A DNA stretch of 64,000 nucleotides from Straminergon stramineum (taxonomy: Eukaryota > Streptophyta > Bryopsida > Hypnales > Calliergonaceae), in NCBI GenBank assembly GCA_963920665.1, contig OY987265.1:10173001-10237000 (forward strand). The letters are read 5' to 3'. Shown piece by piece: positions 5,667-44,545 of this stretch. The notes under the pieces are model-generated. The model saw only the letters and a program-made list of their open reading frames with translations, searched no databases and had not been told where the DNA came from. Made by a program: the position numbers and the translations under genes. Every line of letters starts with the position of its first letter. Position 1 is the stretch's first letter.

Positions 5667-6386
5667 TGCGCACTTAAATGAGGGCATTTCCACTCCATGG
5701 GCATTTTTTAATTAATCCAAGTCAAATTTAAACATCCAAAATTTTACTCAAATGAGGCCATTTATCAGGCCGAAGTCATTTTCATTTTATGGGCATTTTT
5801 AATTAATTCAAGTCAAGTTCAAGCACCCAAAATTTCACTGTAATGAGGTCATTTTTTATTTCGAGGACATTTCTACTTTATGGTTATTTTCTAATTAAGC
5901 CAAGCCAACTTCAAAGACCCAAAATTTCACTCAAATGAGGGCATTTATCATGCCGAGGGCATTTGCACTCCATGGGCACTTCTAATTAATCAAAGTCATC
6001 TTCAAACACCAAAAATTTCATTCAAATGAGGGCATTTTCACTCCATAGTCATTTTTAATTAATCCAAGCCAACCTCAAAGACCTAAAATTTCATTCAAAT
6101 GAAGGCATTTCTACTCCATGAGCACTTCTAATTAATCTAAACCAACTCCAAACAACCAAAAATTCATTCAAATGAGGGCATTTTCACTCTATGGACATTT
6201 CTAATTAATCCAAACTAACTTCAAAGACCCAAAATTTCACTCATATGAAGGCATTTATCATGCCGAGGGCATTTTCACTCCATGGACATTTCTAATTAAT
6301 CTAAGTCAACTTCAAACACACAAAATTTCACTCAAATGAGGGCATTTTTCATTCTGAGGGTATTGCCACTCCTCGGCCATTTCTAA
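5667..6386 (+). repeat. Minisatellite array, right copy (about 8 units)
   Basis: About eight diverged tandem units. Each carries, in order, 'ctaattaatccaag', 'cttcaaacacccaaaatttc', 'actcaaatgagggcattt' and 'cactccatggg'. Two unit lengths alternate: about 91 bp with an added 'atcatgccgagggcatt' segment and about 73 bp without it. The same family occurs inverted at 370-560. The arrays bracket about 5.1 kb, so they may mark the subterminal parts of one inserted element. Confidence 0.85.
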
Positions 6387-7397
6387 TTTAAGCTATCAAA
6401 AATTTGTCCTTCTTCAACCGCTTTCTCAACAAATTTAGTCTTTGTAATTGTCGTGAAATCGCAAACACCCCATACACAAGGACAATGTAGATCTATTGAC
6501 ACCAAACCATGCACTGTGTTTGCATTGCCTTCACCATGCTCAAGCCACCTTTTGAACAAATCCTCATCAATTAATTCCACTCACAACCTCGACACCCTCC
6601 ATAACCGATTAGATCATCTCGGATACAGGTCAATGGAATCGTGCTTGCAGTGCAATCAGCTTGGTCTCCCTCCACCTCACATGGAAACATAAACCACCAC
6701 AACACATACTCCAATTCTAGACTCAGTAATGCCACAATACAAAATTAGTCTGGGTGAATCCAAGGCCTAATAGGCAGTGACCAACCTTAGTAGGTTAGAA
6801 AATGGACATTGGTGCCAACTACTATGTCTAATTTTTGGAGTGAGCATTGAAATCCCTATTCCACGTTCTGTAGTATATACAAACTCTCATCCAAGCACAC
6901 ATTTCGATACACCTCAATGAATCAACTAATTTAGGTTTTCACTTCATGCTCATCCCGATTATAAATTGAACACTACATGACTTTTTCATTTTCGAGCGGC
7001 CAGATTTTAGCCTCTAGGACGGTGAGGGGTTAAGCTCTTATCGTTAGATTATCCCATATCCTTCAAGGATTCATGATGGACAATGGCTTCATTATAAAAG
7101 CAACTTCTCCACCCACAATCCACATTGAATGTTTGTGAAATATCCCCCTCACTATGCTATCAAGTACTTTCATGATGGCAATAGGACTCAACTTTGACCT
7201 TTTGGGTTAATACAAGACATTTTCTTCGTTTACAATAACTTGGTCATTTAATTTTTTCTGAATTTAGCAATTTCTCTCTTCTATTTTATTTATTTTTTGG
7301 CTTTTTGCAAAATAATGATTTTATGCCAACCCTACCCCAAAGGTACAATATATATTTTTTTAGAAATTTACAATACTTTGGGTGGCCATTTATTTAG
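6387..7397. other. Spacer with possible degenerate Pol III-like segment
   Basis: Mostly plain AT-rich spacer. On the minus strand at about 7060-7000 there is a stretch reading 'taatctaacgataagagctt', which resembles a tRNA-type A box. No good B box follows, so this is at most a decayed tRNA-derived piece. No protein-coding gene is supported. Confidence 0.3.
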
Positions 7398-9479: not shown

Positions 9480-9482
9480 TAA

Positions 9483-9509
9483 GAACATTGCCACCTATTC
9501 TCGCCAAAG
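9483..9509 (+). repeat. Left terminal inverted repeat of the Harbinger element
   Basis: A 27-bp end that pairs with 21626-21652 at 22 of 27 positions, preceded by target duplication TAA. The next ~100 bp are GC-rich, as they are inside the right end. Confidence 0.65.
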
Positions 9510-9655
9510 CCAGCCAGGCTGGTTTTGGGTGGGCCCGATGAGAAAAAAGTAGTCCACCGGGGACTCAAGGAGGGAGACTGGGAGCCCGGTCACTCCAAAA
9601 GTGTCTCGCCAAACACTAGGACACTATCCCCGCCACTTGTTGACTATTTTCTTTT

Positions 9656-12600
9656 TTGTCTGCTCGTTTTGTTAGTTCACGTTTTGTCAAACTTAACTGC
9701 AGCTTGATTTTGTCGCTTAGTGTGTGTAATGGTAGGAGGGAGAGACAAGAGTATGCAAAAGAGAGTCGTGAGCAATACGGGGAAGGGTTTAGGGTCACAT
9801 CACCAAATTTTGGCAACAATGGCAATTGGGGTTTAGGGTTTGGGGAGAAGGGGAGCTTGCAAGAACAAGGTGTGCAACAGGGAGCAAGGCAAGGGTGCAG
9901 TGGAAGGAGTGTGCTTAGCAATAGAGGCGAGTGGGGGCTAGGAGATCGAGAACGCAATGAAAAAGGCCAACGATTCGGAGTGCAATGTGGTAACAATAGA
10001 GGGCGGAGCGAGACTGGGCGTAATCAACATGCACGCAGCTGTGGTGAGAACAACAATGAGTAATGTAGGCGCAGTGAAAACCCTAGTGAACGTGAAAGTG
10101 ATGTGAGGGAGGAGTCACCCTATTTAGAAGGTGACCATTAGAGTTCTCGAGTTGGAGATTTAAGCTCCCAACCAGAGATTGATGTACTGCTAGGGGCAAG
10201 GGGGTGAGGGCGGGGGTCGGCAACAAGATCAAAGTGTGCAAGTGCAGGCTGTGCAATAGAGCGGAGTGGTGGAATTGTTGTAGCAAAAGCGAGAAATTTC
10301 GTGGCCGAAGAAGAACAACAACTTACCAGGAACGTACTCACTGTGAGCCAAGATCCAATTTCAGATAACCAACAAAAAAATGATGCCTACTGGCAGCACA
10401 TTTGGACACATTTCAATGAGAACAGGCCTTGTGATGAAAGACCTTTGCGTTCATTAGAAAGTAAATGGGGACAAATAAAGCATGATATTGGGAAGTTCAT
10501 CTGAGCCCTCTTAGCAATTAAGAGGTTGAAGCCAACAAGTACAAGTCCTGCTGAAATTATTCTATTGGCAAAAGATTTGTATAGATCAAAACACCCGAAG
10601 AATTTGGACTTCTCCTTCGAGCATTGTTGGGTTCTAGTGCATGATTTTCCATGTTAGGCTGATGGTTGGTATATTATGAAGCAAGTCGGCTCTTCAAAAA
10701 GAAAGGCCATGTCCTCTGATCAGGAGTCTCATGGGGGTGCTCCGGAATCTAATAGTGCTGTTGTCGTACAGTTTTTATGACAACCCAAGGCAATTCCAAT
10801 TAGGTTTGTTCGGAGGAAAACTCAAATTAGCTCAGTGTTTTAATTAGCTAATGTCACTTTGTAGGTAAATTATACCATTAATCTTAATGTATTAGGGTAT
10901 TTGAGTATATTTCATATACTACTTAGGAGTGGGAAAGGAAGTCTCTCTCTAATTTCTGTCCAATTGTAAGTATAAATTTCTAACCACTAAGTCCGTCTTG
11001 GTCTTATCTTAAAATAAAATGCGAATCTAAAGTTATAAACTAAGGGAACGTACATCCCCAAATCTCATACTTTGAATTCACTGAAATATATTACAAATAT
11101 ATCCATTTGCAACCTGCATCTCACAATATATATTTGAACTTTGAAAATTTAGTTTAACCGAGAATTCTTTAATTGTGTTTCACAACTATGATTTCAACAT
11201 CTAAATTGCTTTAAGCGCTAATGACTCAATTACTTCAAGTAAATGTAACACATACCCTTTTTAGGGATTGAAAACAACCAAGGACATCACTTTAAGCAAA
11301 CACATTAACACACGTATGCTTTAAGCAATTCTAAAAATAAATTCCCTTCAGGGATGCATGACGTGCGTTCTTAAATTATTTAAAGAATTTCAAATTCTTT
11401 CCTTTTCAAGGCTCCAGTCTTCATTTGACTATGTATCATTCCATCTTTAGCTTTAAGCTTTCTCCATTTGCATCACCCTATTATCTTGGATCTCCTCTTT
11501 TCTCCAATTGTAATACTGATTCTAAATTATACTTACTAAATTTACATAACTAAATACAATTTCTAATGGAAGAACTTAAATACACATTCAAACATTCAAC
11601 CATGTGCTCATGTCTTTAATTGGAATACAATTTATTAAATATGCGAATAATCATTCAATAATTAGAATGTACATCAATTGTTTATAATTGTTCAATGATT
11701 TCTATTCACTAGAAATGTAAACTCATATTTCAACTCAAAATAAATCTCAATCACTAATTTTATTTCAAAAATAAATGTCCATTTGTGATACAAATATATT
11801 CCAATCTTTTAAATGAAAATAATTATCAATCATTGGTTAATCATTAAATTTCAAAATAAAATCCAATCTCTGGATCATTCAATTCCAAACCAATCCTTGG
11901 TTTACAAATAATTTTCAATCACTAGAATTATCAATTATTAAGTCAATCACTAACTTAATATTTTTCTCCTCTTAATACTTTAAATCTTGCTTTAAACATT
12001 GATACAAAAATTCTCTCAAGAGATAAAATATAAACAATAGACCAAATCTATTCAAAATATAATCAAATTCTCTTAAAGAGATTCTTCTTTTTAAGATGCT
12101 CAAGGCAAAGAAAACTTACTCATTACTTAAGTGATTATTAAATTATTCAATTTAATTGATTTGACATTCATAAAATACTCAAAGTAAAATATCATCAAAA
12201 TTCAATTTCATGCTTAAGCAATAATCACTATCACTTATGTGAATAAAATAACTACAAATGACACTTATGAATTTATAAAATAATACAACAATGGAAAACA
12301 TACAAAAACAACTTCACCTCCCTAATGCAATATAAAATTAAAAAAGAGAGAGTAATGAGAGAAGAGAAACCTATATATATATCACAATCCTTCCTCAAAT
12401 ACCCCTTCCAATCTCTTAATAAAAACCCGTCAAAGTCCACAACCGCTCAAGCCAAAAAGTCATTTCACACTTTAACTTCAAATATCATCACATTCACATT
12501 TAATTACCCAAAACTTTAAACATCTAATCTATTTCACACTCAAAAAAAAAATTATTCTAATTACAGCTGTCAAAGAATCCAATGCTATAAAGAGAGATCG

Positions 12601-14032
12601 CCCACAAGGAACGAAGGTAGCAAAGCTAGTGCAAAAAAATGAGAAAGGCCGAGAGGGAGCCCTATATGCTCAAGCAATAGCTATGAAAATTTTAGCTGAT
12701 GCCACTCTTACGAAGACCCATCTTCTTGCAGAGTAGAACCTTCTAATCCTCATGACAACCTCAAATTCACAACTTACCAATCTAGTTGCACAACAATTCA
12801 TGCGAATCAAGCAAGAAGAGGAGTTGGAGAAGCTACTAGAGCGTAGGGCGGAAGAAAAATTGCAGAAGGACAAAACAATGGCAGAGAATGAAGCCAATAG
12901 AATAGAAAAAATGAAGGCAAATGAAGAAACCATGGCAATTGAAGAGAGGGACCGCATTGAAACTGCTAGGCAAATGACAGAAGGGCGAGTTACCTTAAGC
13001 GATGACAAGGGAGATGAATATGAATACCTCCCAAATGGCCAATTACAAGGAGACAAGTATGATGAGGAGTACATTGCACCGGCTGTAAATGAAAGGGCAG
13101 AGTTTGAGGAGGGATACTTTGGCGATAGCATGGGGCACTTTGAAAACAACGTGCTTGGTGGCAGTGATTGGGAACAATGCACAACGAGGCAACAATTTTC
13201 GGGCGGTAGCAATGTCTTTGGGGAAGAGATTTGCGGTGCAGGCAATTCCGACATAGGGCATCGCAGCAATGGTGTGGGCCTTAGGTGGGATTTCGGGGCC
13301 AAGGGCACTGTTGCATAGAGTGCACACAATTGTTCTGTCCAGCCTATTGGAGGTCAAGGTGTCCATTTGGAAGACAGGAGCATTGCTCGCCAGGGTGGAG
13401 AAAATCGCAGTACCGCACTTCATGGAGGTGTGATTGTGCCCTGCACATTAACCATAACTTCCCATTTCTTTCATGTTTCAATCTAGCGCTTGTGAATCTT
13501 GCTAATTGACAAATCTAAGTAACCTTGCTAATTAAAACACATTTAGGTCATATTAAAGATCAAGATTGAATGGTGTGACATGTCATATCTCATGTGTGAC
13601 CAAATTGCTTTCCAACCTTGCAAGTTAGGACTTCCAAGCAAGACATTCATATCATTCATTCCCTCAATTTTCCATGATGTAGAAAGCAAATTTATAGCCT
13701 TCAGATCCATCCTCATCATACTGTCTACATTTTTTTAATTGTTTGTGGGTGCACGGGATGCAGGGTCTCGTGTGGAGAGAAATGGGGGTCTTTCTAGTTG
13801 TCCAAAAGAATTGGTTCACAATGTGTATGTTGAAGGTGATCGTAGTAATTGGGAACAAAGGGATCATGTTGATCTAGGCATGCCTACTTCATGGCATGTG
13901 TTCGGCTCTCATGGAATTGATAGTCACAATGAAGTTCTAGAAAACACAGTGCATGATGTAGGCAATGCAGAAGAAGACCAAGTCAACATTAGCTTGGCTC
14001 TCAATGGCCAAGGCTTGTATTATAGAACATGA
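9656..14032 (+). pseudogene. PIF/Harbinger ORF1 (Myb/SANT- and NAM-associated-like), broken
   Basis: In plant PIF elements ORF1 encodes a DNA-binding partner of the transposase. One frame runs through 9656-10761 and resumes at 12571. After a Gly/Asn/Arg-rich N-terminal part, 10290-10650 reads like a trihelix/Myb domain: EEEQQLTRNVLTVSQDPIS, then YWQHIWTHFNENRPC, then SLESKWGQIKHDIGKFI, then FSFEHCWVLVHDFP. The C-terminal part (12571-12950) has the usual AQAIAMKILADATL stretch and a charged EEELEKLLERRAEEKL helix. In-frame stops lie at 10061, 10139, 10205, 10502, 10655, 12734 and probably 13316. A 1.8-kb LTR-like insertion splits it at 10762-12565. A likely second exon (about 13762-14032) follows a candidate intron with donor near 13426. 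The family assignment is by motif reading only, but the order of blocks is characteristic. Confidence 0.75.
10757..12570. mobile_element. Solo-LTR-like insertion within Harbinger ORF1
   Basis: The inserted body (10762-12565, 1,804 bp) begins TGTCGTACAG and ends TTCTAATTACA, so it has TG...CA ends. It is flanked by the five-base direct repeat GCTGT (10757-10761 and 12566-12570). Deleting the body and one repeat rejoins the ORF1 reading frame exactly (N-S-A-V-K-E-S). Five-base duplications and TG/CA ends are the marks of LTR retrotransposons. No internal gag/pol and no second LTR are seen, which points to a solo LTR. The sequence is very AT-rich, with 'caatcactaa'-like blocks at 11750-11960. 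An intron is less likely, because the splice signals are poor and the duplication is precise. Confidence 0.75.
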
Positions 14033-14229
14033 CATGAACAATTCAAATATATGGATAATGAAATTCATTTGTTGTGTTGATATGTGTGTTATTTATTCTA
14101 TTTGTATTATACTATTGACAACTTGTAGTTTTTATTTTGGATTTTAATAATAAAGACCATTGTCCCTACTTTTATCAAAATTTATAGTTTCCTTTCAAAT
14201 CAAACATGAATGCTTTTGAATCCATATGA

Positions 14230-15205
14230 AAATACAAGTAAATTGAGGTGTGCTTCATATCTACCTAAAACCTCCATGAACACAATTTCTGTCTTTCTTT
14301 TTTAATCTACATTCCATGTAAAAAGTAAAAGTGAGTTGAGATGTGCTTGAGATAGACCTCAAGCACCACCTCAACATACTTTTTGTGTTACATAATTTCA
14401 TTTCATTCAAATTCAATGTTCAAAGTCAAATTCTGTTGAGGTGTGCTTGAGGTATTCTTGAAGTAGACCTCAAGTACAAATCCATATCATTTAAAAAAAA
14501 AATTTATTCAAACTCAACATCAAAATACAAAAAGTGCTTTATGTGTGCTTTATGTGTGCTTGAGGTCTACTTCAAGCACACCTCAAGCATACCTTAAGTA
14601 CTTTTTGTGTTACATAATTTTTGGTAGTTAAATTCAATATAAATATTAAATCGTAATGAAGTGTGCTTGAGGTGTGCTTGAAGTAGACTTCAAGCATACG
14701 TCAATAATACTTTTTTAATTCTTAATTTTTTTTTACTCATCTTTAATATAAATACACAAAAAGTACTTGAGGTGTGCTTGAGGTCTACCTCAAACACACC
14801 TCAAGCATACCTTAAGCATTTTTTGTATTTTAAATATTTTGGTAGTCAAATTCCATGTAAAATATTAATATTAAATAGTGTTGAAGTGTGCTTGAGGTGT
14901 GCTTGAGGTAGACCTCAAGCACACCTCAAGCACACCTCAAGCACACTTCAATACTTTTATTTTTATTCTTCTTCAATGTAAAAATACAAAAAGTGCTTCA
15001 GGTGTACTTGATGTAGACCTCAAGCACACTTCAATCCTGTTTCTGTATTTTTACATTTATTTTACTCAAATGTAATGTGAAAAGTAAAAGAATGTGTTTA
15101 GGTGTGCTTGAGGTTTACCTCAAACACACCTCAACACATTCTTTTACTTTAACCCAAGTCTACCTAATATACTTTTTTACTTAAGCTCAAGCCTAGCTTG
15201 AGACA
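14230..15205. repeat. Array of ~8 imperfect hairpins built on an 11-nt unit
   Basis: The unit gtgcttgaggt and its complement acctcaagcac alternate to make palindromes about every 100 bp. Centres lie near 14355, 14460, 14570, 14680, 14790, 14910, 15015 and 15120. The best, at 14881-14950, has a 29-nt left arm that is fully complementary to the right side, with a 2-nt centre; the right arm contains one extra copy of the unit. AT-rich 'aaaatacaaaaagt' and 'actttttgtattt' spacers separate the palindromes. The array ends about 230 bp before the dioxygenase-like frame. Transcripts would fold into strong stem-loops. Confidence 0.9.
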
Positions 15206-15434
15206 CTCTTTTACTTTTTATATTGATCTAATATATATATAAAGAATAAAAATCTATTAGTCTTGTTATTCTTGTTAGTACACATTTTAAATATAAAAAA
15301 AGATAGTACTATAATTTTATGTGGAGTTTGATAGTTGAAAGTGATAACATTGTCTACTTGAAAGAATTATATTTCTATACTAGTTTGCAAGAATATAATA
15401 ATTTTCATTTTAATATTCTTGAGTATTAGTTATA

Positions 15435-17011
15435 ATGGAGCTTGCTATTGCAAAAAGTTCCAGAGTTGAGGTCAAGAATGTAAGATATATTGAGGAAAGA
15501 AATATTCTAGAACTTGACTATGGAGGGAAAATGGCAAAGGGTTGTGTGTTTGGTAATCATAGGAGAAAAGAGTCATTTGTGAAGTTGTTTGTGGTACCAT
15601 GCGCTTATACTTTACAACTTCCATATTTTAAAAATGTTTTTACCCTAAAACTTAAGGACTATCAAACTCCAAACCCACATAAAAACTATTACCGAACCCA
15701 TTGTCATAAAATTTGTGAATCTTGTTTGAAAGAATTTTTAGACATTCAAATTACATGTAAAAAATGTGTGGTACCCAATAGTTTTGAAGTGGAGAAGTTT
15801 TGTAGGAGAGAAAGGAACTTTTGTATTTGTGGTGTGGTGCCCATCAAGAACTTAGAAGAGTTTCATAGCATTGTCAAGGAATCTTCACAATATATTATAA
15901 ATGAAAAAAATATTAAACAATATATCATTAAATGTAAAAGAGAATGCAATGATGTTGCAAATGCAATATTGCAATACTTTGGAATTAGTAGGAACATTGA
16001 TATTCATGTATGTTTCACTACATTATCAACAAAATGTAAAGTTGTTGATAGCAGAAGATCAAAAAAAAAATGAAAAAAATGAAGAGAAATGAATTAGAAG
16101 ATCCTTTTTGGATTCATTCTAAATATATAGATACTTGGGAACAAAGTTATTCCCATGAGAGCATAATAAGTACCACAGAGGAACCCTTATTAGTTCTAGA
16201 TGGAGGATTGATCATAAACAATAAAATCTTTCATCACAATCATTTAAGTATTGAATACATTTCTTTACTTTATATACCTCAACTCTTAAAGAAAACTATT
16301 TATAGAAGTACATTGGTATTAGTGAATACCTATTATGAAAATTGTCTTTATAGAGGGAAAAGTGGGAAAGATGAAAAAAGGGGCAATTACGTATCAATTA
16401 GTCATGGATATGGTTCTCATGGTGGTCCTAATGTATGAGGTAACATGATTCAATATCATATGACAAATGAATCGCATTCCAAAGAGTATGCATGGAAGGC
16501 CCAAGGTGATTTGATTGCAAGTAACATATGGAAGCACATGCATAAATTTGGTGATTCCATCAATAAATTTTTTGCAGATCAATTTGTGGAGTTAAAATGT
16601 ATTGGTATTGGAGAAGAGGACCATCCAACAAATGTACATTCCATGCATATTTCCAAAAATTCGAAGATTAAACCACATCTTGATGCAAACGATAAAGAAG
16701 TATCTATTATAACATGGTTTCATCAAGGTGATATTAGAGGAGGTGATTTTGCTGTACGCCAAATGTGTTACAAGTTTTCCACATGCAATGGTCTAGGACT
16801 TTTTATTAGATCTGAAAAATTAGTTCATGGAACCTTGCAATTCAATTGTTTAGGAGTAGAGCTACATTCAAATTTTAAATTAGGTGTAGCACTAGTTAAT
16901 AAAAAGGGAATTTGCACTAGGTTGGTGAATCAAAAAATAGAAGGACAACCACTAACATTTTCTAAAGATTATTGGTCTTCTATAACTACTGAATATGAGA
17001 GAGATTTCTGA
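15435..17011 (+). pseudogene. 2-oxoglutarate/Fe(II) dioxygenase-like protein with N-terminal Cys cluster, broken
   Basis: Three consecutive open pieces form one ancestral frame. Piece 1 (15435-16073) starts at a true ATG and carries C90-x3-C94-x2-C97-x10-C108-x2-C111 plus C123, C130 and C132, a likely zinc-binding module. It runs into a run of ten A residues at 16061-16070, where the frame shifts to piece 2 (16070-16438). Pieces 2 and 3 (16445-17011) are in the same frame and are separated only by one TGA at 16436. Piece 3 has the oxygenase core: H78-x-D80 in KPHLDAND, the RGGDF turn (98-102), distal H128 in KLVHGT, and K145 in the place of the 2OG-anchoring basic residue. The general fold family is inferred. 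A nucleic-acid oxygenase of the TET/JBP type is one possibility, but I cannot assign a subfamily or substrate. The frameshift and stop suggest inactivity unless A-run slippage and stop readthrough occur. It lies inside the putative Harbinger element, just after the hairpin array. Confidence 0.55.
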
Positions 17012-18089
17012 AATTATTCTTTATAAATGTATTTTGTACATATTTATAAATACTTATATTTAAAAATTTTAGTATTTGAATTAATTATTTATTTGTATCT
17101 CATAGATTGTATTTTTGTCTACATAGAAAGCTTTCATTCATTCCATTTGAATTCATGATGTAAAATCAATGGAGCATCTAATTTTGGAGGCAATCATAGA
17201 ATTTCTTAAAATAAATTGCTTGTAGGATTCATTTTTTAACTTAGTATTTATATTTTTTTAAACAAAATGTTTTCAAAGGATAACTTTCGTTGTTTCAACA
17301 ATGTCACCATTTGGAATCAATGTATTCTAATTCCATCTTAGACTTATTAATAATTCAATTTTTTCTTCTACAACTTATCTTCTTGTACTTCACATTTTTT
17401 TAAAGAATTCAAATCAAAATTTTGATTTACTTTTATTTTTTTAGTATTTTCAAATCAATTGTTCATGATAAAGAAGTTTAAGTTCAAGATGTATAATGCA
17501 AAATTTTAAGCTAAAAAGATTCAAAGCCTTGTAAACTAATTTGCCAAGTTTCTCCAAACATAATGTCTTGGATTTGAACAAATTTATCTTGCAATCAACA
17601 CATTTTGGTGAATACTATTGCAAATTTTCTCATTGTGGTATCTTTGACTATTCTAAAGTTCAAAATGCTTCATCAAAAGATCATCCTTGTACTATGTTTT
17701 AGCCATTTTAACTATAAACTCTTGATGTCAATAATGCCAGAATAGGCCTAAATGTCCAAGGCATCAATTTAGAATCAACAATACTTGGAAATTAAATAAA
17801 ACCTAACCAAGTTATTATTTTTTAGATAATATCGTGAACAATTATTTTGAAGTCTAATTTTAGCTTTAAAAATATAATTTTGAAAATGAATGATAAAGAA
17901 TTTTCTATTCAAAATTTTGTACAAAGGTGTGCATTGCAAATCTTGATCTTCTCTTGTTGAGGGTTTTTGAAATGAGCCTCAAATACACTAGATCTTGGAG
18001 AGAAAATCACATTAGAAATTCATTTAAAAAAATTATAGAGTACATTTGAGAAGCTAGACGTTGATTGGGCTTATGCATTAGTTATGCCC
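17012..18089. other. AT-rich spacer inside the Harbinger element
   Basis: No gene is seen. This probably includes the 3' flank of the dioxygenase-like frame; several AATAAA-like words occur but none can be singled out as a functional polyadenylation site. Confidence 0.45.
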
Positions 18090-19023
18090 TTTAAACCCTA
18101 TATGTTTTAGACTATACTTTCACCTAAACTGCTCCAAAATTGTTGTTTCTAGTACAAAAACCAAATTTTTGAAAAAAAACATTTTGGAACACATGTAACT
18201 ATAGGATCTTGTAGTACGCTGGTTTGAAAAGATTTAGATTAAATTTCAGAAATTTCCATCATGTAGATTGCAAGATATTAGCATTTTAATTGACAAAAAT
18301 CCTTTTGGGGGCCTTGTAAAAAAATAGGTAGGTGCACTTCACAAGGTCACATTTGTATGAAATTTTTTCCAGAAGGGTAGTGCTTCTTTGGATTCACTCT
18401 TGAAGGCAACTTGGCTAAATGTTTGAAAAAATTAAAATTATTTGGAATTGTACAACATGTAGGAAAAAAATAGTAAGTAGAAAGAAGTAGAGAATAGTTC
18501 AAAATACTAAATTGCCAAGAATTTAGTTATGGAATTGAAAAAATGCCTATAACCATGGTTGGAATGTTGTAATAAACTATATACATTCGATGATTTTAAA
18601 ATATTTTTAAAATAAAGTTAAATAGAGGACTTCAAAGTTTATTTTAGAGTAAAGAATCTATAATTGCCCACAAACTAAAAGTCCTTGTAAGTTTTATCTC
18701 ATTATTTAAAATAGAATGATGCAAAGTTTTCCTCATATATATAATTCTAGAAAACTAGTTTGAAATTTTTGTTTCTTAAGAAAATGATTTTAAAAGATTT
18801 TCTTGGAGTTGGCCAAGCTCCCCACCAAGCAATGGAAATAACATACCATACAATAAGTATTTAACTATGTAGTCAAAAGTTATGAAATGGTTGAGCTTTA
18901 AAGAAAAAATTGGTCCAAATGTTGTGTGAAATTTCAAGGAAAGAAATGAAAATTCCATTTGTAGTAAGCTGCCCGAAATAGCTATGTTGCCAAAAAATGC
19001 ACTTTGGACATTTAGGAATTAAC
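18090..19023 (+). repeat. Dispersed ~0.9-kb repeat, copy 2
   Basis: Aligns along its length with copy 1 (minus strand of 7398-8255) and copy 3 (47590-48530). Shared blocks include 'ggatcttgtagtacgctggtt', 'attgcaagatattag', 'gtgcacttcacaaggtca' and 'gttgccaaaaaatgcacttt'. It ends 'ggacatttaggaattaa', a variant of the shared terminus. Its presence inside the Harbinger element suggests insertion after that element. Confidence 0.8.
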
Positions 19024-19655
19024 CTCAACTTTTTGTAGTGACCAAATTTTTAGATTTGACATGTGAAAAAATGATAGAAAGACTTGAAATCACTTTTTTA
19101 GTTTTAACACCTATGATCAAATATTATAGTGTTTCAATCTTATATATATATATATATATATAGTGATATTGATGTGTTTTTCCCATGTAATCTCTGACAT
19201 GTTTAGTTTGAATATGTACAGTAAAATATTTAAATCAATTGCTGAAACTTATCAAGATGTTGAATTTTTGTTTAATTTGAAGCAAATTTCAAGAAGTTCA
19301 AAAAGTCATTGGGAATTTTTAGGTTAAAAATAATGCTAATTGAATTTAAATCCAACTAAGGAAACAAAGTTAATCATGTGCAGTTCTTACTCTAATTGAA
19401 AATGTTGTACATTTGTAATTTTCAACATTATGTATCTTTTAATGAAGTTATATTTTTTCAATCTTGACTTATTATGTGTCCATGCAAATGATCAAAGAAT
19501 CCAACCACATGCCATTCTATAAGTGCACAATTTATGGCCAATAAGATTACATCTACCATACATTAAGTCACACAAGTACAAATTATAGAATTGTACCTTA
19601 GTCATGATTAAAAAAGCATGTGCTGAGCACGAATCCATATCTCATACAATTTAAA
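19024..19655. other. AT-rich spacer with (TA)n microsatellite
   Basis: A pure TA run of about 21 bases lies at 19141-19161. The rest is plain AT-rich sequence up to the 3' end of the transposase pseudogene. Confidence 0.6.
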
Positions 19656-20951
19656 TTATGCCATGTTAGCTCCCTTCAAAGCCCACAAGTGTTCAATCAA
19701 GTCACCTCTCAAACCAAAATGGCTATCCACATCTTGTAATTTTGCAATGCCACTAATCAAATCCTCAAATGACAAGTCCCTCTCCAAGGGCAAGTTATTG
19801 TCAAGTACTTCTATAACTATGTCCTCTAGCCCAAACTCATCTTGTTCATCCTCCACAATCATGTTATGGAGGATGCAACAAGTGAACATAATGTCACATA
19901 TGACATCCATATTCCACTGACATGGATTTCTTATAATGGCAAACCGAGCTTGCAATACTCCAAAGCACCGCTCCACATCTTTGCGAACTGCCTCCTATCG
20001 CTTCGAAAAATAGCCCCACTTCTCATCAAGAGCCATGTGAATTGTTTGCACAAAACATGACCATGGAGGGTAAATGCCGTCAGCCAATAAATAATACCCG
20101 TTGTAATCAGTTCCATTGACCTCAAAGGTCATGTCTCTAGCTTCACTTGTTAACATATTGTAAACAAGTGGAGAACAATCCAACACATTTAGGTCATTGT
20201 TAGACCCAGGCAAGCCAAAAAAAACATGCCATATGTGTAATTCCTCACTAGCTATAGCCTCAAGTATAATAGACTTTTTACCAAATCGATCACCAAAGTC
20301 CCCTTGCCAAGCAACTGGACAGTTTTTCCATTCATAGTGCATGCAATCTAATGAAGGAAACATGCGAGGAAAACCATGAGCCTCATTGATTGCAAGTTGC
20401 TTTTCGAAGTCCTAACGGGTTGGCTATCGTAAATGGTACCCTTCAAACTGAGCCCTAATTGCAACACATAAACGCTTCAGTGACTCCATGGTTGTACTCT
20501 CACTAGTCTTGCAATATTCGTTAGTTGCATCTGCACACAAACCATAACACAACATGCGAAGTGTTGTAGTGATTTTTTGGTAGGGGGATAAACCCTCTAA
20601 ACCAGTAGCATCCACTTTTTGCACAAAGTAACTGTCATAAGCACAAACCCTATCCATGATATGCAAAAACAAGGAACGGTGCATATGATACCTCCTACAA
20701 AATAAATAAGGCCTATATACATGGGTATCTGAGAAGTAATCTTTCATTATCCTTTTATGCATCTTTTGCCTATCTCTAGTAATATTTGGAGCTTGACCAG
20801 GCTGTGAGCCTCTAGCTTGTGTAGACATATCTACACCATCACCATTGTCCCTTTGCATCTCTAAAACCCACTGCAAATTGAAATCATCCTCTTCTTCATC
20901 CTCCCTCATCCTCTCTCTAGCAGCCAACAACCTAGCCCTCTGAGGATGCAT
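19656..20951 (-). pseudogene. PIF/Harbinger DDE transposase (HARBI1-like nuclease), three in-frame TAG stops
   Basis: One continuous frame of 432 codons. The N-terminal part has DYFSDTHVYRPYLFCRRYHM and GLSPYQKITTTLRMLCYG, the usual Harbinger lead-in. The DDE nuclease follows: D202 in SLDCMHYEWKNC, D253 in LPGSNNDLNVL and E327 in VERCFGVLQARF. The family's CILHNMIVEDE block and a terminal DLIEHLW complete it, so the length is normal for the family. Stops at codons 176, 180 and 319 are all TAG; there is no frameshift. The full catalytic triad survives, so decay is mild. The gene points away from the right terminal repeat at 21652, toward ORF1. No intron is needed to explain the frame. Confidence 0.9.
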
Positions 20952-21625
20952 TTTTGGAAGCCTTTATCACAAAATGAATACCACAACACAAAATGAACAA
21001 TAGAACAACTGCAAGGTGGCTCAAAGAAATTCAAGAAATGAACTACAAAATAACTTTGAGGGAGCTCAAAAAAACAACAAGAAATGATCACCCCAATAGC
21101 TCCTTGGACCTCGCAGCAACTCTAAGGGAGCTCAAGAAAATATGAAATCGCACTTGCACAACAGCTCAACACAACGCCTCCAAACACCCTTGGCTACACT
21201 TCTTTGCAATGGAGTTTTGTCTCATTTGTGGCCCAACCTCCACCCTCCAAACCCCCTCTAAAACCTCATGTAAACACCTAAATTAACCACGCAACAACTC
21301 CAAGTTACAACCCCTCTTCCCTACTCTAAAAAACTATTCTAAACATCCCTCAAACTCCCTGCCACAACTCATTTGTTTTTTTTCCGTCAACAACTCCCAG
21401 GCAAACTCAAACTGAAACTCATAGCTTCTTCACCAACTCTTTTTGGGATAGTCCTGAATACCAATGCCCTAACAACCTACTAATGAAGCACCTAAACTCT
21501 GCAGTCATTAAGACTACTTCATTGACTTTTTTTCTAGTCACAAAAGTCAGGAATGACTGGGGGTCCTCCCCGGCCAAGAGGAGACCGGGAGGAGCAAGGC
21601 CCAAGCCACCCATTCCCCAAGCCAC
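20952..21625. other. 5' flank of the transposase and GC-rich subterminal region
   Basis: The segment between the transposase start and the right terminal repeat. It becomes GC-rich at 21550-21620, with 'ctccccggccaagaggag', matching the GC-rich character inside the left end. No other gene is seen. Confidence 0.5.
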
Positions 21626-21652
21626 CTTTGGTAAGAATGGGTGGCGATGCTC
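21626..21652 (-). repeat. Right terminal inverted repeat of the Harbinger element
   Basis: Pairs with 9483-9509 at 22 of 27 positions and is followed by TAA (21653-21655), the same triplet that precedes the left end. Confidence 0.65.
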
Positions 21653-21655
21653 TAA

Positions 21656-23099
21656 GAGAGGTTAGAGAGCTCACTAACTTAGTCATGTACCACAACTGAA
21701 ATGCAGCAGTGGTGCAATTATTTGTAACAGTAATTTCAGTGATAATATGGTAGTCTGCTCTAATTCCACCCCTCTTCTAAAGACTATCCCTAGCCAAGGT
21801 CTAAAATGGACATTAACAAGTTGTAAAATAGATAAGTGTAAAGCATTGAATGTTTTGTCAATGATGTCAGAGCGGTTTAACATTTGTCAAATGTTCCTTT
21901 ATTCTTTATTAGTGGATGGAATAAGAGCCAAGGTGGGTCCATTTCTGAAATGTTTACCTATATTCAAAAAAAAATTTCCCTACAACTTTGAATGCTAGTA
22001 TTTTTCAATCTGTACGGTCAAACTTGATAAAAATTTTACCACATGATTTCAGACAAGTATAGTACAAGATCCTATGGTTAGATTTTCTAATTTTAATTTT
22101 TTTTCTTTCTTGAATGAATGCAACAAAAATGACAATTTCGAGTGATTTTTGACAAAAAAATAGGCCTTGGCCCTTTAGGAATTTAGTTTAGTAAAGGTCA
22201 CATTTTGGAACCCTGTCTTTTACTTTCTACATGCTGCAATGCTTGTTTTTGGTGACTATACATGTGGGTTTTGTAAGGCCTACGATCAAGAAATAGATAC
22301 CTATGGCAGAATTCTTTAGAAATTCATAAGTAATTAAAAAATGCTCCAAAAAATATGAAACCACTTGGGGTAGATTCCACATCAATTTTTCTTCAAGTGA
22401 ATAATATGGAAAAATAATTTCATGCATTGAAGAACCATCAAAAAGGACGACCAGCCCTTAAACGGGCGCTTTAAGAACAAACTACTATAATGTGTGTGCA
22501 ACATTCATACGTGGAATTTACATAGCGGCGAAATCATACATGGAATTAAGTGGAAATTTCTTGCAGGGACAATTCACCGGCTTTCTTACTAGATTTCTAC
22601 CTTTCTACAATGGGATTGCCGAAAGGAAGGGTTGTTAGGGACAGTGTGGGGATGAGACTCCCAGGTGGTCAACCATTTTTAATTCAGGTCCGAGTTTGTA
22701 GTTCTATCTGGCCTTTGGATTTTGGAAAAATTACTGGATCCAAGTTCACTTTGCTCTGATTTAAAATACCCAACTAGAGTGGAATATAATTATTCTATAG
22801 AAATCCTTGTGCACAAATTTGAACAATTAAAAATTGTCAAATTCATCAAGGTTTCAAAAACAAAGTCTAAATACAAATTGTAGAGTTAGCCAAAAAGTCA
22901 AGAACTATACTTCAATTTTCACATACCATCAATTATAATTTCGATGGGAAAATGAAGAACTTACCTCATGGACTTTTATAAAGCCTATTGGGTGGAGAGG
23001 TTGTTTTTATAATGAAATCCATTGTCTTGAGTCTTCAAAGAATATGGGATAATTTAAAGACAAGAGCTTCACCTTTCAATTTCAAAACTTACAACTTGT
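21656..23099. other. Spacer with a decayed dispersed-repeat fragment
   Basis: About 21975-22190 weakly resembles the dispersed repeat family: 'gaatgctagtattt', 'acaagatcctatggtta' and 'ggccctttaggaattta' echo its blocks. The rest is spacer without a supported gene. Confidence 0.3.
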
Positions 23100-23460
23100 G
23101 TTCAAAACAAAACTTTAGACCTTGTTTAGGCATAAAAGAATAATTTTTTTCAAGAAACTTTGAACTTACAAAAGTTGAGTAATCAACCTAACCTTTTTCT
23201 CAAAAAATCCGTTTGTGATGTTTAGCTTCCAAGAAAAAGTTCAACACAAAATTCAAAGAGGATGTTTGACAATGTCAAAAAAAATGTTCCTTCCAACCTC
23301 TCTTTGAAATTTGTCCACAACTTTGGATTGGAAGCTCAAAATCACAAAATGATTTTTGGAGAAAAAGGTTAGGTTGATTCTTCAACTTTTGTTAGTTCAA
23401 AGTTTCTTGAAATAAAATATTCTTCTATGCCTAAACAAGGTCTAAAATTTTGTTTTGAAC
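23100..23460. repeat. Foldback element, copy 1 (361 bp)
   Basis: A long imperfect inverted repeat. The left arm begins 'gttcaaaacaaaactttaga' at 23100 and the right arm ends with its complement at 23460. Inner arm blocks also pair: 'aaagttgagtaatcaaccta' with its near-complement around 23370, and the 'agaggatgtttgac' region with the opposing 'caacctctctttgaaattt'. The centre is near 23285. Related to 43605-44128. Confidence 0.85.
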
Positions 23461-26400
23461 ACAATTCTAGCTTCTAGCTTCACTATGAGCAGTTCCCCTC
23501 CTACTAATTATAATTTATATATCCAACATGGTTGCATTACCTCCTACCATCCCATTTGCATATGATGACCTTGTCTTCACATCTCTACTTCATTCAAGCC
23601 ACTATTTGGGATTAGGCTACAAATTTTTTTTTATTGTATTGTATCAATTTTCAAAACAAAAAAAATTTTCATGACATTGATTTTGCATCTTCAAATCATT
23701 GCAATAGTACAAATGAATTTGGTTGTAATTCTCACTCATTCTACTAAATTGTGTTAATCTATAAAATTTACTAATTAGTCTTCAATAAATTTGAAAAAAT
23801 TGAAAATCTATAATTATGCAAACACAGTTTTGGCAAACATGTAATAGTTGTGAAATGAAACTTGCAAACAACACTACTCAAACCCTTATAGGGCAATCTA
23901 CACTTCAATTACAGAATTATGTTTATATAGTATGAATACTATGAAGCTTGTAACAATGATTTATGAATGATGATTGCCTACCTTCCCCTCTAGATACTTT
24001 AAAAACACATTGTTGTAGAATCTAAATTTAAAAAATAATTCCTTCCAAGCAAGCCCATTGAAATGTTTTTTTGGTGTACAAAATATAACTTCACAAATGC
24101 ATCTTTTGCTACAAACATAATATTATTAAAATACTAAGCTATTACCAAGTATAGGCAATATTACCCTCAAAGTTCTTAGATTAACAAGCACTCACAAACT
24201 AGTCTAAAGTGTGAGACTACATCCTCGAAAGTATTTAGTATATTCAAATATCTAAAACAATGAACATGCTTCATCAATAGGAAATAAACAAATAAAACTT
24301 ACAAATCTCTTTCTATCAAAACTTATTAACAATGGCTTACACAACACATCCATAGAATTGAACATCTTCCATATTGCATTGACCAACATTTATTGATTAA
24401 ATTGACAATGGAAAAATGAAAACTTGTAGTATTGTAAATTTTTAAATTTTGTGTCAATTTGATTTTTCAAGTATAAATTGGGTTGTCAATTTGCCTCATT
24501 TCCATTAGTAAGTCAATTAGCAATATAAATCTTTCATTAGAATTGAATGGGTGGATTTGCTAGGATTTAAAGCAAGGCGAATTGATAAAGATTTAAAAGT
24601 CAAATTGAATAGTTGTAGCTCTCTACGAAAAGTCATCTTCCCAATTTTGGGACTATAAGTCCAAAGGTCGATTTGATTTTAAGTTTAGTTCATACATGTC
24701 GTATGTCTCACTGTACTCTTGTGATTCTATTGTAAAAATTCTCAAACTTTAAAAAGTTTGTAATTGTCAATTCGTTTTGTTGAGAAAGTTGTACTTGTCA
24801 ATTTGGCTCAGTGATTCGGCCATTGGTTGCTGTGGTATTGGACTGAGGAGCGAGAGTCAAGTCGACTTGGAGAATTGTATCATTGTATGGTTGTCTAATT
24901 GATGTGTGGAAATTGGTGCTTGTAATTTAGATTATTATTAAATCTCTATATATGTATGCATGTTTGAATTCATAGATTAGTTGACTATGCAATATAGTTA
25001 TGTATGTGTGTGAACTGTGATAGTCAAAATTGGCTGCAAGTTGGTTATTGTCTATTTGCTTGAAGAATTGAATTGCTATATTTGAGGTTGTATGTTAAAG
25101 TTATTGTCCAATTCACTAAGAAAGGGATCATGGTGAAATACTGTGACTGCTAGTGGCTGGTCCAGTTGGTAATACATTGTAGATGGATAAGCTAGATCAT
25201 AGACTAATTGGGTGAGATAATTAAAAATATGCATAACATTGTTTGTTTAATTGATTGCAAGTGGTAGCTTATAATATGGGAAAGGATTGTTAAGTTGAGG
25301 AATTCATCCAATCACATGAATTGATGCCTTAATTTTGATGTGGTGGTCCAGTAGTCTAAATTATATTATAAACACTACAGATATTAATTTGTTAAATTGG
25401 CATGTAAGAATTGATTGTATACGGGCTTAAATTTGGAAGTTTGATAACATCTAGTCAACTAGAATAATAAATTGATGAAATGTTGAAATATATAAGTCAA
25501 CTGGAAGTTTGGACTGTAGCTTAAGTAGAGAGGAATTATTGTAGTCAATTAGGTTTGTGATAAATTGACCAGTGTTATGTTTTTCTGATCTAGTATGAGA
25601 TGGTTGGAAAATTATGGGATGTTGTTTTGATATGGCAAAACAGTGGATATCCAAAGAAAAAGGATTAATCAGTTTATGAGATTGCATAGTTAAGTTTATT
25701 TGACAGAAGGTTGAATAAGTCTATTTGTCATTTCTAAATAGACATGGTCCAGTTACAACAAGTGTAGCATGTGAAGTGAATTGATGAATTGAGTTTTGAA
25801 TTAAATTAAATTATATGGCTCAAGCTACAAGTAATAGAATTGAAATCTGAAATTAAGTCAAATCAGACATAAAGCATATCTAGTAGTTGATATTTGCTTT
25901 GTTAAAGGAGTTAGTCAAGTTGATAGTGTAGCTGGAGGTAGGTGGAAAGTTGATTGGGCTTTGTATTAGACCTTGTGCATAGTGATAGGTCTAGTCTCTT
26001 GGTTGTGTGTCCATGGATGGATAATAAGGCCAATTAACTCAACCACAGACAAGTTCAAAGATAAATTGACTTCAAAGGGAGAATGGAGCGAAATGGGTTG
26101 ACATGAAGAATTACTCAAGCCCCAAGAACGAACTAATTCCTTCTTTTGAAACTTTTGATTGCACGGAATTAGGAGACAAAATTATTTTATAAAATAAAAG
26201 TTGCAATGAAATTAATACGGTTTAGACGGATAAGAGAAAGAAAAGAGGATTGAATTTATGTTCAAATTAATTGATTTTTTTTTATAAATATTTATACAAT
26301 ATTAATATTAAGTGGCTAGAGCATGCATAAGACAAATCGACAATTCCTTGACAAATTGACTTGAGAATTGACATGAGCCACATATTAGACAAGACTATGA

Positions 26401-30337: not shown

Positions 30338-33300
30338 TGTTGCAAGGTACCATTGCTAGTTCCTTGTTCTTGTAATTATTCTCGCAAAGACAATGAGAAC
30401 GAAGTCAAATTAGTACATCCAAAGACAAGGAAGAGGCATGCCAATTATGATGCTAGGGGGCTAAAGAAGCAACGCAATGCTATAACAACTGAGCATTTAG
30501 AACCTTGTTTATGTACTCAATGTTAGGGAAGAATATTTTATTAACTCGTTGAACCATCAATCGTCATTTTGCAAAATGATCTTGAAAGACAATCACATGC
30601 CCCACCCCCTACTTTGCATCTATATTTCACTATAGAAAATAGAGGAGACCTATCTTTAAACCAAGAAGAATTCCAACTTGATTCCCATAATTAAGAAGGT
30701 GACCAAGTTCGAGATGACTCTCAAGTAATACTTGATGATCAAGCGAGATCATATCATCATGAAGACCTTCATAATTCATTAGAAAAAACTCTTAAATTGA
30801 AGCTTCTTGAATTGCAATCACTCATGGACTCTGGTAACAACTCCATCATAAACCAAACAAAAATTTTTAGACTTCTATTTTATAATTTTCAAGATGTAAA
30901 CAATAGTGAAGTTCCTCCCAATGCTAATTTTCAAAACTACAGTATAGGAACACTAATTAGAATGCTCCCCCATCTTTGGGATGGCACTCTAGAAGGATTT
31001 CCTTCACCAGAATCTTTCAAAGATATTAATGAACTATATAAAACCATGGGAATGTTCAAACCTTCTTGTTGTAGCCTCTACACGGGAACAACTAGTTCTA
31101 AACATGAGCCTATTTTGATCCAACCATCTACTAGGAAAGAAGATGATATACAAAGTTGTACCGAGTTTGGTCAAATGAGAAAAGACATATTATCCATTGA
31201 TTATTTACAAGTGATGGAACAATTAAAATTATTATGCAAATGGAGACTTTTTGTAGTGAATTTCTAACTACGTGGAAAGCCCAAGATAGGTAGTTAGATA
31301 AAGGGTTAGATGAATTTTTAGAATCTATACAAGATTTTTGGGATGGTGGTAAAGCGAGACTTTGGAGTGACTTTTGGAATCTAACCAAACTCTATGGGTT
31401 GTTTGTTGCATGCTCTAAATGCAATATAAAGTACACCACTTTTTCACAAAGTATTCATGCACCAAAGTTGGACAAAGGATGGTAGGCAAATACCAACATG
31501 TACATATTTATTTGTAGAAATTGTTCACACTGCATCAAAGCCTCATCACTTATGGTAAAGGTATAATTTTCATTTGGACTTCAATATTCTTGATTTTCTA
31601 TGTAACTTCATTTTCAAATTTTAATAGAATTTTATTTTTTATTTGATGTCTATATATCATTATATCAATACTATAATTATTCTAAAATATTGGAATAAAA
31701 TTTGATATTTTAATTCATGCAAATGTAGGGGGATCCACTTAATTTTAGCATATTGGCACATTAGGATGGATTCCAATCAACAAGGACAACATACAAAAAC
31801 TGTTGGACATTGGAAATCACTATTCTTAATAGTGGCAAAATATCCTCCATTGAACCATTGCCTATAGTATTCATTCCTTTGTCATCTACGAAGTTGCATA
31901 AGTCCTAAGAATTTAATGTCATGAATTATTTTATGAACCCCTTCATTGATGAAATGGAGAAAGCTTATTATCTCTTGTGATGATGCATATGCCCTTGAGG
32001 TTACAATTAATGCACCCCCCTCTCTTTCTCAAAATGAAGAGCCATTGATCTTGTAAACAAAAATTCCCCTCCCCCCTCCAAGGCCGTTGATTTGAAAAAA
32101 CAATATAATACAGATATAGATATTATGGGATATGGATACCCTGGGGTATATCTATCTCTATCTCTCTCTCTATATATGATGGATACAAATACAAAATATA
32201 AAGTGAGATACAAGATATTAATATATAGACGGAATATATACATATCCATACAAAATATAGGTACAAAATACACTAATATATCCCATATTGATTGGTGGCC
32301 AAACTACTTCTAAAAATTATAAGTATTTGTGTAGAAGGGGGGTAATTCTTGATGAATAATATGAATAAATAAACCACTTTTATAGGGGTGGGGTGTAATA
32401 CAAATAAACAATTCACTAATTGAATTGTCCCCTGTGAGTGACTATCCACTCAATAGACATTGAAGGATTCTAAGTTCAATATTCATATGATCCACAAAAA
32501 ATTCATGAAAGCTTTGTTCATTCACAATACAAGTACTTTTCCTATATCCTATATGTTATTTCATTTTGTACTCATTCTTTTATTTCCTTCTTTTTAATTT
32601 TTTTAATTCAAAATATGTATGATAATTAATTATTTTATTTATTTATTTATTTATTTTTAATTTATATTAAAAATCCATTTACTTTAATGTTTTACAATGG
32701 TATACAAAATAACTTTCTATATATCCTTTATAATTTCAAATTATTCATGTAATTCTCACTAATCATGTGTAATATTACATTTTTGAACATTAGGATTCGA
32801 GGTCCATTATTCATCTTCACAGGTGACCACCCTACTCAATGTAAAGCGGAAAACTTAAAAGACGGTGGATATAGTTCTTGCCATTGGTGCTACGTTCCAC
32901 AAGAATTGGACGTTTAAAACAAACTAGTCTTCAAAGAAGACTTTGATGCTGATTTTGTTGTTGCTTCACCAAAATCACACTAGAAGAAAATTGTGAGGAT
33001 TTCAATACAAACAACTTGATGTTTTTGTTTACTCTAATGCAAAAACATCAAATTCAACGCAGATTTTGCGTTGAACTTGATATTTCTACATTAGAGTAAA
33101 CAAAAACATCAAGTTGTTTGTGTTGAAATCCTCACAGTTTTCTTCTAGTGTCAATTCATGATTTGAACATGGAATTGAATTCGTGGATGAAAGCCTCAAC
33201 ACTTAAACAACATGCAACATTGTCAAATAATTTAGGTATGCAAGTAATATTGTTTTTGCTATAATATTTTTAAACTTCAAAACATTTTCGTTTTTTTATT

Positions 33301-41991: not shown

Positions 41992-42158
41992 GTACACTAG
42001 TAGAAAACTACATTGCGGTCAACAAATGCTAGGTAACATTTTTTGTCAATTGTGTTCATTGCAACGCAGTTTTCTGAAAACTGCATTGCAGTGAACGCAA
42101 TTGGCAAAAAATGTCACCTAGCGTTTGTTGACCGCAATGCAGTTTTCTTCCAATGGTA
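41992..42158. mobile_element. CACTA-type MITE, 161 bp, TSD GTA
   Basis: The element at 41995-42155 begins CACTAGTAGAAAAC and ends with a near-complement (CATTGGAAGAAAAC when read inward). GTA flanks both sides (41992-41994 and 42156-42158). The arms are about 75 bp long, with a shared inner block 'attgcggtcaacaaa'. It is essentially one palindrome without coding capacity, of the same superfamily as 32978-33150 but with a different interior. Confidence 0.85.
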
Positions 42159-43288: not shown

Positions 43289-44545
43289 CACTACAAGGAA
43301 ATACAATGCAAGATGACAAGTTTTTGATAGAAAATTGTCCGAAATGATAATAGCTATATTATTGCTACCTCATCTTGTCAATTTGTGAGAACCTGTCAAT
43401 TTTTTATCAAATTGTTGTCAAATTTATAGTCGATGTTTGGTTCTCTTTTTCTTATTTTCAAGGCACCAACTATTCATGGATGATATATAGACTCACTAGT
43501 GATTGTTAAGATAAATGATTTGTTAAAAACCCAAAGATTCCATTAGGTTTCTTATACATTTACTTTCTTATCATTTGCCATAGATATCTTAGCTTGAGTT
43601 ATGTGTAGAACAACCCATGTGGGATATGTCATTTAGAAGTTGCAAGAACTCAACCACTCATAGTTAAATTTGAAATAGGAATTGCATTAAAACTAAAATT
43701 TCAAACCTCATTTTAGCATAATATAAGAACTTTTCAAAAAAAACTTTCAATTAAAAAAAGTTGATGAATCAATTCAAGTTTCATGTCCAAAAATTTGTTT
43801 GATATTTTGGTCCTCCAATCAAAAGTTATAGACAAATTTCAGAGAGGATGTTTCAAAAGATAAAAAAATAAAATCCTCTTCCACCGCCTCTCTAAAATTT
43901 GTCCTTAACTTTTGATTGGAAGATTAAAATATCAAATGGATTTTTGGACATGAAACTTAAATTGATTTATCAATTTTTTTTAGTTCAAAGTTTTTTTGAA
44001 AAGTTCTTATACTATACATAAATGAAGTTTGAAATTTTAGTTTTAATACAATTCCTATTTCAAACTTAACTATAAGCATTTGAGATCTTGCAACTTCTAA
44101 ATGACATATCATACATAGGTCGTTCTACCTTCTACCACTCCATGCGTATATAGAGAGTTTATCTTCTCTTCTCAAATTCACAAAACATTTGTAGTTCATG
44201 AAGTGTTGTGGAGCAATGGCAATTGGTTGTGCTATATATACATTTTTGCTCAACATATAAAAGTTTAAAATTTAAAGCAATTTCAATTTTGATATTCTTT
44301 CACAGGAAATGGGACACTTGTAACCATTGGTTAGGCCATCATGCTAGCATGACAATGGGACAACTAAGAAAAGAGGGTACTATGGAATAGAAGTTGACAA
44401 AAATTCTAGCAATGTGACAAAATAGTTGATAAAATTTTGTCAAATTATTGAACAAATCTAGTAATCTACAAGTTCCTACTGACAAAGCAATTGACAAACT
44501 TTTGTCAATTTTTTGTCAAATAGGACAAAGTTTCCTTTGTAGTAG
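43289..44545. mobile_element. Possible non-autonomous CACTA-like element (~1.26 kb)
   Basis: The left end reads CACTACAAGGAAA at 43289. The right end, read inward, gives CTACTACAAAGGAAA. Both subterminal regions are rich in the word TTGTCAA and its complement, about five copies near each end (43305-43435 and 44395-44520). Such clustered short motifs are typical of CACTA subterminal transposase-binding sites. No clean three-base duplication is seen, so the right boundary is uncertain. It contains a foldback element. Confidence 0.5.
43605..44128. repeat. Foldback element, copy 2 (524 bp)
   Basis: A long imperfect inverted repeat. 'gtagaac' starts it at 43605 and its complement ends it at 44128. 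Pairing blocks include 'tcatttagaagttgcaaga' with its complement near 44090, 'aaactaaaatttcaaacctc' with its near-complement near 44030, and 'ccaatcaaaagtta' with 'taacttttgattgg'. The central part, 'agagaggatgtttcaaaaga' facing 'cctctctaaaatttgtcc', matches the centre of copy 1, so both belong to one family. Confidence 0.85.

Follow-up and report, generated by a model that had tools for sequence, protein, structure and literature searches.

A decayed PIF/Harbinger element, probably enlarged by insertions, and a dispersed family of TET/CMD1-like oxygenases, in Straminergon stramineum

The window analysed here, 64,000 nucleotides of the 326-Mb assembly of Straminergon stramineum (contig OY987265.1, below C3, positions 10173001-10237000), harbors a 12.2-kb element (9483-21652) that lies between inverted ends with TAA outside both. 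With a probability of about 0.8, this is an old, dead PIF/Harbinger element from a family with a compact relative, enlarged by later independent insertions. The compact relative on C9 (locus L053) has corresponding ends, duplications, ORF1 and transposase, and the middle of the window element contains sequences that are dispersed elsewhere without this transposon. The original prediction had taken the middle for the cargo of a new class of large Harbinger elements. This claim is unsupported because the closest relative among the matches listed, L053, is 5.5 kb long with its own ends and no oxygenase gene, because the oxygenase genes occur in other contexts, and because copies of the hairpin core are dispersed independently. 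As a Harbinger the element is ordinary; what makes it interesting is its passenger, a copy of a TET/CMD1-like oxygenase family.

The Harbinger element and its compact relative

In the PIF/Harbinger superfamily, a Myb-like ORF1 protein and a DDE transposase act on the element ends, and insertion occurs at TWA. The window element has the short inverted ends and the 3-bp TWA duplication of this superfamily (TAA here, TTA in L053; Table 1). Among all TAA-flanked 27-mer pairs of the window with a spacing of 0.1-20 kb, the predicted 22/27 pair ranks first; the runner-up (21/27) belongs to a dispersed inverted repeat. The terminal 120-bp stretches are GC-rich for an AT-rich window (57% and 59%, values reached by 0.7% and 0.2% of windows). 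Past the 27 bp, the similarity of the two ends is no better than that of shuffles (local score 19; shuffle mean 12.6, maximum 23).

The two genes are convergent as predicted, with ORF1 on the plus and the transposase on the minus strand and 5.6 kb between their matches. The transposase is of the Plant_tran/DDE_Tnp_4 type found in PIF/Harbinger elements: its two pieces match PF04827 (Plant_tran, E 5e-49 and 6e-19) and PF13359 (E 1e-6). Transposases of this kind, like the intact kinase/EF-hand gene described below, point to a plant genome. The ORF1 match to the Myb/SANT-like family PF13873 (E 8e-4) reaches 19.7 bits, under the family cut-off of 21.7. The ORF1 frame carries many stops and is interrupted at about 10865-12566 and 13445-13740 by AT-rich, intron-like gaps (splice sites judged by eye, and GC strata). 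The Harbinger's own parts have 41-58% GC; the block between the genes (14033-19655) has 22-31%.

Table 1. Features of the element in window coordinates
Feature	Position	Strand	Basis
TAA, left copy of presumed target duplication	9480..9482	.	sequence
Left terminal inverted repeat	9483..9509	+	begins GAACATTGCCACC; 22/27 match with right end
ORF1-type gene, decayed, limits approximate	9720..14032	+	PF13873 at 10208-10501; tblastn to ORF1 of L053, L055 and L048
Hairpin array, dispersed repeat	14320..15150	.	palindromic core matches, folding, genome count
TET/CMD1-like oxygenase pseudogene with Cys/His-rich N-terminal part	15435..17011	+	profile and paralogue comparison
Dispersed repeats unrelated to the transposon	17090..19240 (17092-17530, 18099-19027, 19033-19223)	.	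further copies in window
PIF/Harbinger DDE transposase	19656..20963	-	435-codon frame with three TAG stops; PF04827
Right terminal inverted repeat	21626..21652	-	inward reading GAGCATCGCCACCC; 22/27 match
TAA, right copy of presumed target duplication	21653..21655	.	sequence

The transposase query yields at least 151 matches in the genome (150 of 340 candidates scored), and the closest among those listed is that of L053, at 73%. L053 is a 5,512-bp element with ORF1 on the plus and the transposase on the minus strand, in the same gene order as in the window. It is bounded by TTA and GAGCATCGCCACTG on one side and by the mirror of GAGCATCGCCACCG followed by TTA on the other, with an end-to-end likeness of 20/27 (16/20 over a shorter stretch). 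No TET-like match lies between these ends. ORF1 also stands beside the transposase in L055, the extended form of L046, which likewise lacks a TET-like gene, and in L048; the gaps there measure 0.64 and 0.45 kb, against 5.6 kb in the window. ORF1 is not recognised in L043-L045, L047, L049-L052 and L054, all of which except L054 span just 1.5 kb each way. As is general in the superfamily, elements of this family would have moved by the action of their DDE transposase and Myb-like ORF1 protein on GAGCATCGCCACC-type ends, with insertion at TWA. With plant PIF/Harbinger elements the window element shares a Plant_tran/DDE transposase, short inverted ends and TWA duplications, a putative ORF1 of the Myb/SANT-like kind, and a compact relative in the genome; it differs in being decayed and in probably having reached 12.2 kb by nested insertions.

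Sequences between the two genes, probably inserted

The enlargement of the element may be explained by independent insertions between the convergent genes, namely the hairpin array, a copy of the dispersed TET/JBP-like gene and high-copy repeats. The hairpin array, present between the genes as predicted, contains seven matches to a palindromic core (14343-15127, spacing 100-213 bp; none in 100 shuffles), and its folding gives z = -24 against 20 shuffles. The core occurs at 138 genomic places, the reversed pattern at 10. The 50 core places listed (C1 to C3:33 Mb) are clustered, many with a spacing of about 100 bp, and overlap with TET-like matches is limited to the window's three. Among the repeats at 17090-19240, a 501-bp piece (18150-18650) has 5,231 first-look candidates genome-wide, and all 40 that were scored, the window itself among them, match at 82% or more. 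An Rfam scan of the window finds nothing at gathering scores.

The DNA common to the window's oxygenase copy and its near paralogues is confined to about 15274-17048. In the genome, 42 TET-like matches form 22 places including the window (grouped by eye), three of them weak (E 7e-5 to 5e-4). None of the 21 other places has a listed transposase match within 20 kb (from coordinates, by eye); the nearest pair outside the window among the matches listed, again by eye, is about 24 kb apart on C9. The Harbinger transposase and ORF1 have no match in L001-L033 (there, ORF1 by its first piece) or in L035 and L036. Loci L001-L030 span 1.5 kb each way, and the window transposase is 2.6 kb from the TET copy, so the linkage argument rests on the longer loci (L031-L033, L035, L036) and on the coordinates; the transposase test of TET loci leaves out L034 and L037-L040. 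End-like sequences (at least 19/27) are found 0 times in 183 kb of TET-related loci.

Two larger units were considered for the middle and dropped. The hairpin array might have been part of the TET gene's own element, as the TET locus L031 also has one; the genome-wide count of the core led to its rejection, and a loose link may remain. The repeat at 18.1-19.0 kb, which stands on both sides of L007, was discarded as the terminal repeats of a TET element for its abundance. Around the TET copy, a search for nested-element ends returns 170 candidates, all weak, none of which forms a convincing pair flanked by a duplication.

Several points weigh against an ordinary Harbinger with independent insertions. 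The coincidence of hairpin core and TET gene is judged on 50 of the 138 core places; in L031 (C4) a hairpin array with a spacing of about 102 bp lies about 100 bp from the TET gene, and single related palindromes occur in L018/L028 and L026, so that some link between array and gene is possible. A target duplication for the TET copy or the hairpin array was looked for and not found. Paired ends were found for one relative (L053) and in neither L054 nor L055, and the statements on the closest relative and on linkage rest on the best 150 of 340 transposase candidates.

The better of the two alternatives is that the Harbinger took up the TET-like gene and carried it along when it moved, in the manner of the rust-fungus PHISTA elements. 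The gene does lie between the ends, it is decayed to a similar degree as the transposase, and Kojima (2025; PMC12730594) describes TET genes carried in fungi by Harbinger (PHISTA), IS3EU and other transposons. A TET/JBP-like gene between Harbinger ends is what the window element and PHISTA have in common. As characterized there, however, PHISTA duplicates TA on insertion and lacks a Myb/SANT protein, and the window element is flanked by TAA; a TET gene between the ends is seen here in one Harbinger, a dead one, and is absent from L053 and L055 among the matches listed, in a plant and not in the fungi which that paper covers. The nearest listed relative without a TET gene, the 21 other TET places without a listed transposase match inside 20 kb and the long TET loci without transposase or ORF1 all argue against joint movement, which is thus quite improbable. 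Least credible of all is that the two ends derive from two different related elements with genomic DNA trapped between them, an option the original prediction had allowed for: the ends do differ at 5 of 27 positions, show no likeness further inward and are unusually far apart, but L053 has end, ORF1, transposase and end in the same order as one unit with ends also matching at 20/27, and TAA stands on both sides of the window element.

Two side observations concern palindrome arrays. Clusters of the hairpin core are often paired about 1-1.3 kb apart, as if arrays stood at both ends of an element (C3:8524073 and 8525056; C2:39459226 and 39460342; C3:28214829 and 28216113). A second type of palindrome array, with a different core, lies within a TET-like gene copy on C11 (L013:958-1134).

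A TET/CMD1-like family

The oxygenase frame with its Cys cluster is present inside the element as predicted and resembles a nucleic-acid-modifying dioxygenase; a frameshift near 16060 and a TGA stop at 16436 interrupt it. Among its public relatives, P0005 is open across both break points and P0002 across the TGA point. These relatives (P0002-P0014 and P0016-P0044) have no precomputed Pfam domain and no informative name, and the family members scanned give no Pfam match at cut-off. Cys and His residues are conserved in the N-terminal part, whose resemblance to RING domains scores weakly (E 0.55 and 0.09).

The only match in the PDB, up to E 10, for each of three family queries is CMD1, a Chlamydomonas TET homologue that modifies 5-methylcytosine (PDB 7cy4-7cy8): the window piece gives E 9e-4, a seven-member profile (A3) 1e-5 and a thirteen-member profile (A5) 2.5e-4. 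Over the roughly 78 residues aligned, the family HxD and a later His fall on H345, D347 and H397 of CMD1, with identical residues at D350 and W358 (numbering by a chain-to-protein offset of 374, derived from five agreeing positions). The iron triad HxD...H of TET/JBP enzymes is found at the aligned position. In A5 the HxD is present in 12 of 13 members (HxN in P0006) and the later His in 11 of 13, that is, in all those reaching that position; 10 of the 13 have Asp where CMD1 has D350, and all 13 have Trp where it has W358. According to PMC7854593, D350 of CMD1 contacts N4 of 5-methylcytosine, and W358 fills the space taken in TET2 and NgTET1 by the arginine that holds 2-oxoglutarate. Judged from the alignment, the family would have the Trp358 of the CMD1 type, and this invariant Trp, where CMD1 excludes 2-oxoglutarate, leaves room for an ascorbate-type reaction. 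The intact protein would most likely be a dioxygenase that depends on iron and modifies 5-methylcytosine in DNA. The family resembles CMD1 in the triad, the Asp and the co-substrate-position Trp, and differs from it in the short similarity of about 78 residues, the Cys/His-rich N-terminal part and the many dispersed copies; its enzyme activity is putative.

The family could instead belong to another branch of iron-dependent dioxygenases, whose substrate would be a protein, RNA or a small molecule. This would fit the lack of a Pfam match among the members scanned and the confinement of the CMD1 similarity to one stretch. It would also fit the behaviour of full-length L031 and P0016, which fail to find CMD1 when queried singly; L031 alone matches a DHFR-thymidylate synthase (E 0.002), which is taken for chance. 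Two structure models have a predicted local distance difference test (pLDDT) of 30 and 33, too low to show the double-stranded beta-helix fold of TET/JBP enzymes, and would also fit such a branch. Against it, CMD1 alone is matched in the PDB by three queries, and the alignment lands on H345, D347, D350, W358 and H397, the residues whose roles are set out in PMC7854593. Membership outside TET/JBP is therefore unlikely, while keeping more weight than the alternatives for the element.

Possible spread, past constraint and decay of the family

Many of the genomic TET-like copies have internal stops. The most complete copy seen is an open frame of 563 codons on C4 (L031:4523-6211). Between L031 and L032 the ratio of nonsynonymous to synonymous substitution (dN/dS) is 0.31 over 300 codons, and between the recent copies L008 and L006 it is 1.0 over 108 codons; four of the six pairs compared are not usable or are saturated at synonymous sites. 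The two values together suggest that the family was constrained in the past and is decaying now. P0028 and P0029, which lie on a public contig of 217 kb, are pieces with 95-96% identity to L031. Scanning viral_contigs and genome_contigs for loci related to P0002 and A3 yields no relatives.

Mobile DNA of several kinds, with the TET-like gene inside it or next to it, may have dispersed this gene across the genome. A 17.1-kb unit (C1:5630056-5647194), with a copy 95.3% identical on C7 (L034, L037, L039; L032, L038, L040), encodes an integrase core of the rva_4 family (E 7e-16 and 8e-11), which we take to be of the IS3EU type, and a HECT domain (E 1e-11). The TET copy in this unit is 5'-truncated relative to L031, with homology over the gene body only, and the unit shows neither clear inverted ends nor a clear duplication. 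A 2.3-kb unit common to L035 and L036 was dropped as an element, one of its limits being a CACTA-like insertion. A TET-like copy on C7 is interrupted at L035:5453 by sequence beginning CACTACAACAAAA, which presumably resembles a CACTA end.

The fungal TET-carrying transposons (PMC12730594) likewise include unrelated mobile elements that have TET copies within a single genome, with homology limited to the gene body. Kojima (2025) reports no signature at the limits of the transferred TET genes and proposes that TET has a role in escape from methylation silencing (PMC12730594). By analogy, the spread seen here might have been favoured if loss of methylation helped mobile DNA to escape silencing.

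For plants, Yakovlev (2019; PMC6917789) reports 5-formylcytosine, 5-hydroxymethylcytosine and 5-hydroxymethyluracil in the DNA of Norway spruce and no TET/JBP homologue in the gene models used there, and states that TET/JBP enzymes had not been identified in plants; PMC6949463 treats plant TETs as an open question. No paper describing the present family was found among the top-listed open-access papers, judged by titles and the starts of abstracts. It is tentatively proposed, with the balance somewhat against it, that this plant genome houses DNA dioxygenases of the TET/CMD1 type as a family spread by transposons. Its members would have a Cys/His-rich N-terminal module, would formerly have been kept under purifying selection and would have passed among kinds of mobile DNA (Harbinger; the integrase/HECT unit of C1 and C7), and they could account for oxidised methylcytosines in plants. 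A multicopy plant family that aligns with the CMD1 active site is a concrete candidate enzyme for expression and assay, and the proposal, if true, would mean that transposons carrying a possible methylation eraser, a pattern of fungi, occur in plants as well.

Other features of the window

Tandem arrays with a 73-91-bp unit occur at 5680-6388 and 370-563 and are mutually inverted. Long near-perfect palindromes (84-91%), some of them interrelated and resembling foldback elements or miniature inverted-repeat transposable elements, lie at 23096-23464, 32977-33151, 42002-42148 and 43605-44128. On the minus strand, an uninterrupted frame of 553 codons (50998-52656) encodes a protein kinase with four EF-hands, a layout that we take to be that of plant calcium-dependent protein kinases.

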